From the NCBI RefSeq assembly GCF_963931295.1, contig NZ_OZ007001.1:310001-374000 (forward strand): a DNA stretch of 64,000 nt. Direction: 5' to 3'. Each line of letters begins with the position of its first letter. Positions within the stretch are counted from its first letter, which is position 1. The notes under the pieces were generated by a model. It searched no databases. It saw only the letters and a program-made list of their open reading frames with translations, and was not told the DNA's origin. Below, piece after piece: positions 13,030 to 64,000 of the stretch. This stretch comes from an uncultured Mailhella sp. (GTDB lineage Bacteria; Desulfobacterota; Desulfovibrionia; Desulfovibrionales; Desulfovibrionaceae). A program made the translations under genes and the position numbers.

Positions 13030-14215
13030 ATGTCCCGTCTGCGCAAGACACGCTGTACGAACTGCATTGCTTGCACGACGGCGGCTGCGCTTAACGCCGG
13101 AAGTGAATTCCGGCTGCGCGCCTGCCGTCGGCCGGGCTCCTGACGTCGCCCGGGGCCCCAGTGCGTTGAAAAACGGCCTTCCGACTGCACTCCCCCACCC
13201 TCGCTCTTGGCTTCGGGCATAATCTTCCCGTTCACCCCGTCCTGCCGAACCGGCGAAGCCGGGAGGCAGAATCAGGGGGGCGCGGGGGGAATTATTTCTG
13301 ACCTTGCAGCGTCCCAACGACTGCGCAATCCCGTCTGCGTCGGACACGCTGTACGATCTGCGGAGCTTGCACGACGGCGGCTGCGCTTAACGCCGGAAAT
13401 GAATTCCGGCTGCGCGCCTGCCGTCGGCCGGGCTCCTGACGTCGCCCGGGGCCCCAGAGCGTTGAAAAACGGCCTTCCGACTGCACTCCCCCCCCTCGCT
13501 CTTGGCTTCGGGCATAATCTTCCCGTTCACCCCGTCCTGCCGAACCGGCGAAGCCGGGAGGCAGAAACAGGGGGGCGCGGGGGGAATTATTTCTGACCTT
13601 GCAGACTTCCGAAAACCGCACAGCCCCGTCTGCGCAAGACACGCTGTACGATCTGCAGAGCTTGCACGACGGCGGCTGCGCTTAACGCCGGAAGTGAATT
13701 CCGGCTGCGCGCCTGCCGTCGGCCGGGCTCCTGACGTCGCCCGGGGCCCCAGAGCATCGAAAAACGGCCTTCCGACGGAACTCCCTCCCCTCGCCCTTGG
13801 CTTCGGGCATAATCTTCCCGTTCACCCCGTCCTGCCGAACCGGCGAAGCCGGGAGGCAGAAACAGGGGGGCGCGGGGGGAATTATTTCTGACCTTGCAGC
13901 GTCCCAACGACTGCGCAATCCCGTCTGCGTCGGACACGCTGTACGATCTGCGGAGCTTGCACGACGGCGGCTGCGCTTAACGCCGGAAGTGAATTCCGGC
14001 TGCGCGCCTGCCGTCGGCCGGGCTCCTGACGTCGCCCGGGGCCCCAGAGCGTCGAAAAACGGCCTTCCGACGGCACTCCCCCCCCCTCGCTCTTGGCTTC
14101 GGGCATAATCTTCCCGTTCACCCCGTCCTGCCGAACCGGCGAAGCCGGGAGGCAGAAACAGGGGGGCGCGGGGGGAATTATTTCCCCCGCATGCCTTTTC
14201 TGCCTTTTCTGCCTT
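13030..14215 (+). repeat. Tandem array of four about 295-bp modular repeats (modules A and C)
   Basis: The landmark GCATAATCTTCCCGTTCACC recurs at 13217, 13512, 13807 and 14103, giving periods of 295, 295 and 296 bp. Each unit holds one module A (13076-13159, 13372-13455, 13667-13750, 13962-14045), a linker, the CCGGCGAAGCCGG hairpin and a G-rich module C. Internal C modules break off into TTTCTGACCTTGCAG, whereas the last one is complete (GGGGGAATTATTTCCCCC then GCATGCC) and ends near the 3' end of the next minus-strand gene. Units 2 and 4 share linker variants that unit 3 lacks. Open frames inside the array are repeat artefacts. Confidence 0.9.
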
Positions 14216-14274
14216 TCCTGCCTTTCTCGGGGCAGCGCCCCGAGGGCTCTTGCCGTCCCCTTCCACTTCCTCTT

Positions 14275-14943
14275 CTACAGCAGGGGACGGAGTTTCGGAG
14301 CGGCGGGGAGGATGTTGCCGTTGCGGGCAATGGTGACGACTTCGCAGGGGATGTTGCGTCCGCAGGCGGCGACGGCCTTTTGGACGGCGAGTTCCATGCC
14401 GCCGCAGCAGGGGACGTCCATGCGGACGACGGTAATGCTGCGCACGGAGTTCTGACGCAGGATTTCTCCAAGTTTTTCCGCGTAGTTGACGGCGTCGAGC
14501 TTAGGGCAGCCGATGAGGGTGACGCGGCCGCGCATGAAGCGGCGGTGGAAGTCGGCGAAGGCGTAGGCGGTGCAGTCGGCGGCGATGAGCAGGTCGGCGT
14601 TCTGGAAATAGGGCGCGGAGAGGGGCGCAAGTTTGATCTGCACGGGCCAGAAGCGCAGTTCCGACGTTTCTTCGCCCGCGGGTTCGACGTGCAGGGTGCG
14701 TCCGGACTGTTCCAGATGGGCTTTCACGGCGCTTTCGTCGTAGGCGTCGGCCTCGCGGAAGTCGAAGGAAATGGCTCCGGCAGGACAGGCGGGCAGGCAG
14801 TCGCCGAGGCCGTCGCAGTAGTCGTCGCGCACGAGACGGGCCTTGCCGTCCTGCATGACGATGGCTCCTTCGTGGCAGGCGGAGGCGCACAGGCCGCAGC
14901 CGGTGCAGGCGTCTTCATTGATATGGATGATTCTTCTGAGCAT
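14275..14943 (-). CDS. Two-cluster ferredoxin-type Fe-S protein
   Basis: 222 aa from the ATG at 14943, preceded by CAGGAG; the longer frame has no support. The N-terminus carries CTGCGLCASACHEG (4Fe-4S signature) and a second, altered signature, CDGLGDCLPACPAG, in which the first CxxC is stretched. The remaining 150 residues include IGCPKLDA and VPCCGGMELAV, Cys motifs seen in small cytosolic redox proteins of anaerobes that resemble heterodisulfide reductase or hydrogenase-associated modules. Probably carries electrons or senses redox state; partner unknown. Followed directly by a complete module C/D block on its own strand, which may terminate it. Divergent from the HD-domain gene. Confidence 0.85.
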   Translation of the reverse strand: MLRRIIHINEDACTGCGLCASACHEGAIVMQDGKARLVRDDYCDGLGDCLPACPAGAISFDFREADAYDESAVKAHLEQSGRTLHVEPAGEETSELRFWPVQIKLAPLSAPYFQNADLLIAADCTAYAFADFHRRFMRGRVTLIGCPKLDAVNYAEKLGEILRQNSVRSITVVRMDVPCCGGMELAVQKAVAACGRNIPCEVVTIARNGNILPAAPKLRPLL

Positions 14944-15408
14944 AATTTTCTCCTGATGAACTGATGAAGCGCTTGCGGGGAGCGCCTGTGAACGTGACCG
15001 CGCGACCGAATGCCGCGCGCGAAGAATTTCGACGAAGTCCAGAACGCGAAACAGCATGCGAACCGCGCCCGGAACGAACCTTCCCGGCCTGCGGGAGTCC
15101 GCCCGTCAAAGATAATCCCGAACATGCGCCGCGCAAGGATATTTTTCTGTGATCCCGGGCATTGACGCCGCAAAGCCGGGGTCGTACACCAGAGCGAAAT
15201 TCGCCCGACGCCGGAAAAAAGGCGTCACGTTTTGCCGAAACGGCCCTCCGGACATGTCCGGACGCCCCGGCGACGCCGGCAACAGACGCGACTTGCGTCC
15301 GTTCGCCGCGCCCGTTCCGTGCCGCCCCAGGAAACGCTTCCGCCCCGACCATCGAGACGCATCCCGCTTCCCCGGCGGCGCAACAGTTCTCACGCAGGAG
15401 TATTTGCC
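14944..15408. other. Divergent intergenic region
   Basis: 465 bp between the start codons of the Fe-S protein and the HD protein. It should contain both promoters. I see no convincing -35/-10 pair and no repeat module; open frames here are GC-driven. Confidence 0.5.
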
Positions 15409-62202: not shown

Positions 62203-62203
62203 A

Positions 62204-63478
62204 TCAGTGACGGAAGGTCTGATTCCTGTCGGGCCCCACGGAAATGTAGCCCACCTTCACGCCCAGCACTTCCTCGATGCGCTCAATGTAGCGACGGCAG
62301 TTGCGGGGCAGGGAATCCCAGTCCGTGCAGCCGGAAAGATCCTCATCCCAGCCGGGCAGCACTTCAAACACCGGCTTCGCGTTGTCGAGTCCGCGCGGGG
62401 TCTGCGGCGGATACTGCATCACCTTGCCCTCGTACTCGTAGGCCACGCAGAACTTGATTTCCTTCAGGCCGGAAAGCACGTCCACCTTGGTGAGAGCAAT
62501 GCTCGTGGGATCGCAAAGACGCGCCATTTCCCGCAGCACCACCAGATCAAGCCAGCCGCAGCGGCGCGGACGTCCGGTGGTCGCCCCGTATTCGCCGCCC
62601 TGACGACGCAGAAATTCGCCCATGTCGTCGAAAAGTTCCGTGGGGAAAGGTCCGGAACCCACGCGGGTGGTGTAGGCCTTCACGATGGCGATGCGCTGAT
62701 CGATCATGCCCGCATGCACGCCCGAGCCGATGGACGCGTTGTCGCACACCACGTTGGACGACGTCACAAAGGGATAGGTGCCGTGATCGATGTCGAGCAT
62801 GACGCCCTGCGCGCCCTCAAACATGATGCTCTTGCCGGCGGCGTCGGCGTCGATGATGAGGCTCGACACGTCGGCCAGATAGGGCACAAGGCGCGGCGCA
62901 ATGGCCATGAGATCGTTGAACACGGTTTCAGGATCCAGCGCGGGCAGGCCGTAGAGCTGCGTGAAGAGCACGTTCTTTTCCTTGAGGGCGTGCTCAATCT
63001 TGTCGCGCAGCACCTCGGGATCGGTCAGATCGCCGGCGCGCACGCCCACACGGGCCTTCTTGTCTTCGTAGCAGGGGCCGATGCCGCGGCCGGTGGTGCC
63101 TATCTTGGACTTCGCACTGCCTTCGCGCGCGCCGTCGATGGCGCGATGATACGGCATGATGAGATGCGTCTTGTAGCTGATTTTCAATCTTTCGGGGCTG
63201 ACGTCGAGTCCGAGGCTCTGGAGGGCGTCTATCTCCTCAAGGAAGCTCTCAGGATCGAGCACAACGCCGTTGCCGATGACGCACATCTTCCCGGGATGAA
63301 GTATGCCCGAGGGCACGACATGCAGGACGTACTTCTGGCCATCGACGATGACCGTATGTCCGGCGTTGTTGCCGCCCTGAAAACGGACCACCATATCCAC
63401 TTCGGAAGTGAGCAGATCGACGATCTTACCCTTGCCTTCGTCGCCCCACTGCGCACCAACGATTGTCATGTTCGACAT
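62204..63478 (-). CDS. purA: Adenylosuccinate synthetase (PurA)
   Basis: 424 aa from ATG 63478 with AAGGAG 6 nt upstream. Catalytic motif VGAQWGDEGKGKIVD near the N-terminus, the GNNAGHTVIVDGQ loop, GTTGRGIGPCYEDK and EGAQGVMLDIDHGTYPFVTS are all present, as is TGRPRRCGWLDLV in the C-terminal half. It makes adenylosuccinate from IMP, GTP and aspartate in purine synthesis. Full length; followed at 1 bp by holB. Confidence 0.97.
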   Translation of the reverse strand: MSNMTIVGAQWGDEGKGKIVDLLTSEVDMVVRFQGGNNAGHTVIVDGQKYVLHVVPSGILHPGKMCVIGNGVVLDPESFLEEIDALQSLGLDVSPERLKISYKTHLIMPYHRAIDGAREGSAKSKIGTTGRGIGPCYEDKKARVGVRAGDLTDPEVLRDKIEHALKEKNVLFTQLYGLPALDPETVFNDLMAIAPRLVPYLADVSSLIIDADAAGKSIMFEGAQGVMLDIDHGTYPFVTSSNVVCDNASIGSGVHAGMIDQRIAIVKAYTTRVGSGPFPTELFDDMGEFLRRQGGEYGATTGRPRRCGWLDLVVLREMARLCDPTSIALTKVDVLSGLKEIKFCVAYEYEGKVMQYPPQTPRGLDNAKPVFEVLPGWDEDLSGCTDWDSLPRNCRRYIERIEEVLGVKVGYISVGPDRNQTFRH

Positions 63479-63639
63479 ATATCTCTCCTTAGGACGCACC
63501 TTGAAAAATAGAAGGCCGTGCCGGCCCTCTGAAAACGCGCCAAAGACATTTTTATAGAGCCCTTTGTCTGGCTCGTCAACCCGATAAAGCCGAGGGGGAC
63601 CCGGACGCCCGGCGGTACCAATTCCTTCTCCCGAGTGCG

Positions 63640-64000
63640 GCAACTGCCCGCTTGCTCAAGCCTCTCTTTACAGAATGCGAGGCTTGCACGACGGCGGCTG
63701 CGTTTAACGCCGGAAGTGAATTCCGGCTACGCGCTGCCGTCGGCCGGGCTCCTGACGACATCTTGCCGGGAGCATGAGTAACGCCGTCGTCCGTTTGCGC
63801 CGGACACACTTTACGGGCTGCTCTGCTTGCACGACGGACATTGCGTTTAACGCCGGAAGTGAATTCCGGCTACTTATGCCCGTCGGCCGGGCTCCTGATG
63901 TCGCCCGGGGCCCCAGAGCGTTGAGAGAATGCCTTCCGGCAGGCACTCCCCCTTCGCCCTTCGCTTCGGGCGTAATCTTCCCGTTCACCCTGTCCTGCCG
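63640..64000 (+). repeat. Repeat block at the right edge with two A copies
   Basis: A copies at 63689-63771 (third stem altered) and 63832-63914 (one G-C pair in the outer stem replaced by A opposite C), separated by about 143 bp, much less than 295. The start of a module C linker (GCGTAATCTTCCCGTTCACC) lies near the end; the block continues beyond the window. Confidence 0.8.

Follow-up and report, generated by a model that had tools for sequence, protein, structure and literature searches.

A hairpin-bearing intergenic repeat mosaic confined to one segment of the Mailhella chromosome

We analyzed a 64,000-nucleotide stretch of DNA from an uncultured Mailhella species (assembly GCF_963931295.1, contig NZ_OZ007001.1, positions 310,001–374,000 of the forward strand; hereafter the window), in which an initial annotation, made from the letters alone, had pointed out a dispersed element of three hairpins, here called module A; the block mosaic, the restriction to one segment, the strand polarity and the cross-phylum core described below were outside its view. 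We think it somewhat probable that module A is the core block of an intergenic mosaic that is confined to one chromosome segment and resembles bacterial interspersed mosaic elements (BIMEs) and BOX elements, that it folds in single-stranded DNA and is turned over by local recombination coupled to replication, and that it is not a structured RNA. For interspersed repeats in bacteria, genome-wide transposition is the usual explanation. A family that occupies one sixth of a chromosome, mostly in one polarity and in two species, while its blocks seem to be reshuffled between strains, would provide a test of fork-driven local spread, and would also let selection be told apart from template switching as the source of compensatory changes in hairpins. 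The confinement is the most interesting part of the finding; in the literature searched, which left most subscription journals outside, we recognized no description of this repeat or of any segment-confined repeat.

Module A is one block of an intergenic mosaic

Copies in the window were sought with nhmmer, using a single copy as the query, and with a covariance model (R1) built from 21 copies. Both returned the same 23 copies, in agreement with the earlier estimate of about 23; 21 are on the plus strand and two, a pair at 16279–16560, on the minus strand. The 84-nt core described in the initial annotation is common to the copies, but the conserved unit is longer, about 144 nt, since a 5′ part (CCCGTYTGC...CTTGCA) is shared as well. 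The stem types that had been listed are all present: CGACGGCGGC (with a bulged 3′ arm), CGACGGGCAT and CGACGGGGCG in stem 1; GCCGGAA, GGCGGAA and GGCGGGA around an RTGAA loop in stem 2; and the named types of stem 3, including those at 36292, 36462 and 16381, which have three added pairs, a TGAN loop and a bulged A. The arms match in most copies, as claimed, but a few chimeras combine arms of different types and pair incompletely (16516 in stem 2; 36462 in the inner part of stem 1). In the genus-wide alignment described below, 14 of the 147 rows have stem 2 open at its second pair.

The other blocks of the mosaic are named b, T and C, and the T block terminates in the hairpin GCGGGGGGAATTATTTCCCCCGC. 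The blocks are distinct and the inner ones are repeated in tandem in varying number, giving strings such as A-b-A-b-A-b-A-b-T (13032–14200), A-A-A-C-T (36250–37050) and T(−)-A-A-A-A-C-T (56487–57945), as well as A-b-A-b-A-b-T and C-A-b-T. Arrays of module A are direct tandem repeats and not inverted pairs, with a spacing of 288–296 nt, of about 171 nt at 36250–36734, and of 124–143 nt for truncated copies. T blocks face each other in two of the nine window composites (24279–24862 and 56487–57945).

Confinement to one segment, mostly in one polarity

In a search of the whole chromosome, in which R1 scored 150 of 2423 first-look candidates, we obtained 69 hits for module A (E ≤0.01), 59 on the plus and 10 on the minus strand, three of them weak (22–33 bits). 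All 69 lie within positions 198,997–732,076 of the 3,168,613-bp chromosome, that is, within 0.53 Mb or one sixth of its length. In 17 stretches (340 kb) sampled outside 190–740 kb, no A, b/T or C block was matched, and an all-against-all comparison yielded 77 dispersed-repeat segments in 22 non-overlapping stretches (440 kb) inside the segment compared with four in 34 stretches (670 kb) outside it.

The 69 copies group into 34 loci, none of which lies inside a predicted gene. Loci on the plus strand outnumber those on the minus strand by 27 to 7 (two-sided p 8e-4), and in 25 of the 34 the 3′ end faces the 3′ end of a gene. All seven loci between two minus-strand genes are on the plus strand; between two plus-strand genes, five are plus and three minus.

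GC skew switches from plus to minus near 20–40 kb and from minus to plus near 1.7 Mb, where a DnaA-like gene lies (1698467–1699636). A stronger DnaA-like match (578377–579804) is located inside the repeat-bearing segment, about 1 kb from the array at 580830–581272; the samples surrounding it show no switch in skew. We infer that the origin of replication is near 1.7 Mb and the terminus near 0.03 Mb, in which case the copies occupy a single replichore and most of them have their complementary strand on the lagging-strand template.

Segment and polarity in other Mailhella genomes

Of the 59 genomes searched with R1, 15 gave matches. Besides the window genome, these are 12 of the 17 congeners and two (G025 and G033) of the 41 others. 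The named records rich in copies are Mailhella, family Desulfovibrionaceae. Five of the 17 congeners are without an R1 match, and three of these (G002, G012 and G016), which are at least 93% complete, are also without the core pattern discussed below. One genome, G246, carries the same species listing as the window genome, and its core coordinates agree with the Mailhella record NZ_CALUYL.

In a same-species metagenome assembly, with flanks 92–97% identical to the window genome, 27 of 28 clusters of module A map inside the segment, none outside, and one is unmapped. Where sites are bracketed on both sides, the composites stand at the same sites and the block string differs in 18 of 18. Clusters of G015 map 16 inside and one outside the segment, and those of G010 six inside with two unmapped; the mapping target represents 26% of the chromosome outside the segment, compared with 88% of the segment itself, so unmapped clusters could lie elsewhere.

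Another Mailhella species, G008, has 44 hits on two contigs, 32 of 34 being plus on C27 and nine of ten minus on C28. Ten of 11 anchor stretches matched the window genome, relating C27:705–979 kb to 200–431 kb and C28:237–377 kb, inverted, to 665–488 kb of the window genome. Since C28 is inverted relative to the window genome, 41 of the 44 hits have the same polarity. Two hits (C27:94801 and C28:433826) fall outside the anchors, and two array sites occupy the same intergenic interval in both genomes. The segment and its strand polarity are common to two Mailhella species.

This conservation, together with the placement of all copies on one replichore at roughly 0.17–0.70 Mb from the putative terminus, is what would be expected of a polar chromosome-domain element, in which a host protein, bound to the hairpins, would mark, pause or organize one terminus-proximal arm. 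The other replichore is without copies, however, the block content varies between assemblies of one species, and five of the 17 congeners lack R1 matches, three of these five being at least 93% complete and also without the core pattern; we therefore regard a domain function as very unlikely.

Covariation of the three stems

For the 21 window copies, 96.9% of the pair cells pair, compared with at most 45.6% for slid partners; 41 cells are changed on both sides compared with 15.1 after shuffling, and the covariation score lies above all 500 shuffles. Two further measures, the number of pairs with two-sided change (5 versus 4.4) and of pair types (8 versus 10.3), do not exceed the shuffles, and stem 3 was misaligned in this alignment and showed no two-sided change. 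We then used 147 distinct Mailhella copies, from the best 150 of 186 matches, aligned to R1. Two-sided change occurs in 14 of 22 pairs, all three helices vary yet stay paired, and all five measures lie above all 500 shuffles, with a covariation score of 0.301 compared with 0.116 shuffled and at most 0.079 slid.

Because an alignment to R1 leans towards the model, the test was repeated on a plain MAFFT alignment, using mutual information without reference to structure (144 copies, 95 after dereplication at 92%). Eleven of the top 30 pairs are at least 85% Watson-Crick and cover all three stems, including two additional pairs, one beside the internal loop and one apical in stem 3. The 19 remaining pairs include the two with the highest rank, which are not Watson-Crick and, like most of the 19, follow the stem 1 and stem 3 types as linked neighbours in those regions. 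The claim that stems covary in all three arms thus holds, on 147 copies by the shuffle and slide tests and on the MAFFT alignment by mutual information. An alternative 5′ helix that would compete with stem 1 (CCCGT with ACGGG) has 89.5% of its cells paired, yet it is not supported: 8 of 21 rows do not form its first pair, and two-sided change is seen at one pair only.

From the covariation the initial annotation had concluded that pairing itself is selected. Selection is plausible but unproven, since the few G·U and A·C intermediates also fit template-switch correction of imperfect palindromes, and the copies seem to be reshuffled. In the extreme case, the covariation would be purely mutational: template switching within a quasi-palindrome rewrites one arm from the other and pairing is not selected at all. 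Few half-changed pairs and the existence of chimeric arms would suit this, and template switching reportedly can create and maintain hairpins (PMC8794818). We nevertheless consider it extremely improbable, as the outer stems differ between phyla but the RTGAA loop, the TTRAC/T internal loop and much of the inner stem persist, a pattern that suggests selection on the core.

DNA hairpin or RNA

If the plus strand were the RNA, a G·T cell of the plus strand would represent G·U; if the other strand were, an A·C cell would. The 3181 pair cells comprise 3041 Watson-Crick, 31 G·T, 53 A·C and 56 other combinations, and the corresponding numbers in the acceptor and T stems of 18 distinct tRNAs from sampled stretches of the same genome (216 cells) are 202, 11, 2 and 1. 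G·U accounts for 1.0% in module A and for 5.1% in the tRNAs, and A·C outnumbers G·U in module A; by these counts, module A is below the tRNA share on either strand. The folding z-scores of three single copies (−1.1 to −2.8) are only modestly better than those of shuffles, and no match to a sigma-70-type promoter was found within 12600–14400. A search of Rfam gave no family above cut-off at module A, in keeping with the earlier statement that no named family was recognized; the best weak match was chrB-b at 24.5 bits (cut-off 36.5), and the weak matches (chrB-b, Gut-1 and others) did not hold as the identity of module A.

Of the two options that had been left side by side, a structured RNA or a functional single-stranded DNA hairpin, the DNA hairpin is favoured and the structured RNA is weakened by the scarcity of G·U. 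A structured non-coding or 3′-untranslated-region RNA, transcribed from either strand, would account for three covarying stems, for the many loci that face gene 3′ ends, for the uniform orientation between two minus-strand genes and for those cores outside Mailhella (7 of 21) that follow a same-strand tRNA or transfer-messenger RNA (tmRNA) gene within 250 nt. It sits poorly with the pair counts (31 G·U against 53 A·C, where the tRNAs have 11 against 2), with the modest z-scores, with the Rfam and promoter searches and with the mixed orientation between two plus-strand genes, and we hold it to be decidedly improbable.

An inner hairpin that extends beyond module A

Module A contains an inner bulged hairpin core (TTRAC / 7-bp stem / RTGAA / T) that recurs with different outer stems. 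The form TTAAC-stem-RTGAA-stem-T is present in Clostridia and Oscillospiraceae records and in a Desulfovibrio, where the outer stems are unrelated and most pair by eye, and the core is also found in other genera of the family (G025 and G033). Of 297 genomes of the class, counting that of the window, 14 have the exact pattern, and a reversed control gave none among the matches listed. Contigs of a viral collection gave eight matches in seven stretches (two stretches with G033-like elements, four with an AT-rich version of the core locus and one probably due to chance), and no match to a 146-nt copy of module A was found in plasmid and phage records.

In G033 the core is matched 238 times, genome-wide and on both strands (117 + 121). 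Ten of the 13 loci inspected, which include L222, L225, L230 and L242, are elements of about 126 bp similar to miniature inverted-repeat transposable elements (MITEs), ending in AGAGC...GCTCT (T/AGAGCA...TGCTCT/A); T precedes nine of the ten and A follows all ten. In the congener G017 the core is spread over many contigs, so confinement belongs to the module-A form and not to the core. That other phyla share the core suggests that some factor recognizes it.

Seven of the 21 loci outside Mailhella, all seven in Clostridia/Oscillospiraceae records (L053, L065, L075, L105, L110, L111 and L112), have the core on the strand of a tRNA or tmRNA gene and no more than 250 nt downstream of that gene.

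Transposases

No dedicated transposase for module A was found among the five Mailhella Y1 domains scanned, four of the window genome and one of G008; these match the IS200/IS605 model and are below the cut-off of the REP-transposase model (REP, repetitive extragenic palindrome). Among eight Y1 loci (about 1.5 kb on each side), module A is present at L004 only, and G033, despite its 238 core matches, has no Y1_Tnp match. A gene for an IS200/IS605-type transposase (12118–12465, minus strand) adjoins the first array of the window. Its HUH region looks shortened compared with L001 and the enzyme is probably inactive; we rejected it as the partner of this array because HUH-region residues are missing and a tRNA intervenes.

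Read on the complementary strand, module A has the form GYAG-hairpin-GTTAA, with an A compatible with GTAG in 54 of 147 rows and a G compatible with GCAG in 93 of 147; several Clostridia core copies have other tetranucleotides at the tag position. This bulged hairpin resembles GTAG REPs and raises the possibility that module A is a REP-like, non-autonomous element mobilized by a single-strand transposase of the HUH class. Genes for IS200-type TnpA exist in Mailhella, and the strand bias observed is the one expected from insertion into the lagging-strand template, which IS608 and ISDra2 are said to target (PMC6006769). Escherichia coli REPs likewise have a bulge and a GTAG tag that TnpA_REP needs (PMC8266576). 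Still, the scanned Y1 domains are all of IS200/IS605 type, G033 has no Y1_Tnp match, seven of eight Y1 loci are without module A, and transposition alone leaves confinement to one segment unexplained, so that we judge this origin unlikely. Mobilization by REP-associated tyrosine transposases (RAYTs) was rejected as the main explanation on account of the type of the five scanned domains and the lack of Y1 in the most core-rich relative.

A proposed local recombination at the replication fork

Sites that stay fixed while their blocks differ, units in tandem, chimeras with swapped arms and few half-changed pairs point to DNA-level recombination and template switching. We propose that the complementary strand of most copies, as lagging-strand template, would fold once it is exposed as a single strand at the fork. 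Modules would then be expanded, deleted or exchanged in two ways, by misalignment and template switching from one hairpin to its neighbour and by recombination between T, b or C blocks that are shared, and the action of these processes at neighbouring sites would keep the spread local. The arms may stay complementary through selection by a DNA-hairpin-binding protein or through arm-to-arm copying by template switching. The first seeding may have occurred by single-strand transposition in trans by an HUH enzyme, and the T hairpin, which often adjoins a gene 3′ end, could act as the terminator or insulator of the gene in question.

Several points weigh against this reading. First, no intermediate of recombination or replication was observed, and recombination covers turnover at existing sites but neither seeding over 533 kb nor absence elsewhere. 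Second, the cross-phylum inner hairpin looks like a protein-recognized site, which passive recombination would not need. Third, composites of other Mailhella genomes at L056, L082 and L108 match intervals that are module-free in the window genome, which means that sites have also been gained or lost; in place of a composite, the intervals have 841, 918 and 2545 bp of other sequence, and no clean empty site was found among them. Fourth, the compared same-species assembly is metagenome-derived, and since short-read assembly can collapse or mix repeats, part of the block turnover may be artefact. Finally, (i) with 150 of the 2423 chromosome candidates scored, weak distant copies may be missed, (ii) genes were called with an approximate gene finder of our own making, (iii) the stronger DnaA-like gene at 578 kb means that the origin and terminus rest mainly on GC skew, and (iv) the G·U test treats related copies as independent, its p-values being only a guide.

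Beyond local recombination, a bolder scheme would have a hairpin family, built around a cross-phylum bulged core that a protein recognizes, colonize only one replichore segment in one fork polarity because it copies itself between neighbouring sites at the fork. We offer it tentatively, as a possibility that is probably not correct as a whole.

Composites of the window

The first array consists of four plus-strand copies (13032–13176, 13328–13472, 13623–13767 and 13918–14062), 295–296 nt apart and scoring 164–172 bits with R1 (alignment A1). Each is followed by a b/T block on the same strand (13188–13300, 13483–13595, 13786–13890 and 14081–14200), of which only the last completes the GCGGGGGGAATTATTTCCCCCGC hairpin, close to the 3′ end of a predicted minus-strand gene (14275–14943). 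The minus-strand composite comprises copies at 16279–16425 (143 bits) and 16437–16560 (truncated and chimeric; 74 bits), with T at 15975–16022 and C at 16117–16223, also minus. A single plus-strand copy with a degenerate 5′ part (24382–24525; 119.8 bits) lies between convergent predicted genes, surrounded by T (24279–24325, minus), C (24608–24717, plus) and T (24805–24862, plus).

Two plus-strand copies (27554–27698 and 27843–27987; 165–168 bits) belong to a C-b-A-b-A-b-T composite (27227–28123, plus) that ends at the 3′ end of a predicted minus-strand gene (28129–30954). In the three-copy plus-strand array at 36250–36393, 36419–36564 and 36589–36734 (spacing about 170 nt; 125–170 bits), the first two copies have the extended stem 3 with a TGAT loop and bulged A, and C (36793–36901) and T (37007–37050) follow on the plus strand. 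Two more plus-strand copies (42167–42310 and 42456–42599; 167–170 bits) are accompanied by plus-strand b/T blocks within 42327–42732, the last adjoining the 3′ end of an HslU-like gene (42757–44169, minus).

Further along, three plus-strand copies (51266–51410, 51560–51703 and 51855–51999; 168–177 bits) have plus-strand b/T blocks between and after them (51420–52134). The array of four plus-strand copies at 56744–56863 (truncated after stem 1), 56868–57011, 57156–57299 and 57445–57588 (98–176 bits) is framed by T (56487–56569, minus), C (57691–57799, plus) and T (57898–57945, plus), with convergent predicted genes on either side. The last two copies (63645–63786, truncated, and 63788–63931, plus strand; 115 and 166 bits) belong to a composite that continues beyond the window edge, with a third copy at chromosome 374081–374224.

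The window also holds an FMN riboswitch (103 bits; 53871–54018, plus) just upstream of a predicted gene (54077–55342), and, outside the module A composites, a separate palindromic repeat of 90 bp that is present twice (27002–27091 and 39621–39710), its copies being 88% alike. A 984-residue frame at 28132–31083 (minus) matches the model of A-adding tRNA nucleotidyltransferase at 630 bits, below the 1440-bit cut-off.

Comparison with known repeat families

The TTAAC box resembles one half-box of an integron attC site; by eye, no matching second box was seen, and the attC reading was rejected. Gut-1 RNA (RF01706) is likewise a hairpin-rich intergenic element and lies beside one Clostridia core copy in L092, but its hairpins are separated by GUGAAAU, it does not cover the core, and it scores 47.5 against a gathering cut-off of 50. 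That 6.8-kb contig has Gut-1 matches at 1876–1956, 5918–6027 and 6217–6280 (47.5, 41.4 and 28.4 bits, all below cut-off), and Gut-1 may itself be a multi-copy repeat there.

The MITE-like repeat of G033 shares with module A the TTRAC / 7-bp stem / RTGAA / T core and differs in its outer stem, its genome-wide distribution and its presence on both strands. Inverted ends of the G033 type were not noticed on module A, for which no systematic search was made.

GTAG REPs and BIMEs, with their TnpA_REP/RAYT enzymes (PMC3733652, PMC8266576), are similar to module A in being intergenic, many-copy and clustered, with a bulged hairpin and a 5′ G-T/C-A-G tag on one strand. In module A, by contrast, the tag varies, no RAYT was found among the five scanned Y1 domains and the block is longer, with three hairpins; its units are direct tandem repeats where BIMEs pair REPs with inverted REPs, and it is confined to one segment. 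With no constant tag, no RAYT among the scanned Y1 domains and no inverted pairs, module A does not qualify as a member of the GTAG REP/BIME family.

BOX elements of Streptococcus pneumoniae (PMC3049150) are similar in having distinct blocks, tandem inner blocks of variable number, a complement that varies between strains and predicted hairpins. They are described as having proliferated throughout the chromosome, whereas all copies of module A that were found lie in one segment. BOX elements possess terminal inverted repeats, and the likeness drawn here is one of described organization; SPRITE repeats of the same species are enriched at convergent gene ends (PMC3049150). By analogy, module A appears most like BOX elements and BIMEs, and would be classed as a modular interspersed palindromic repeat.

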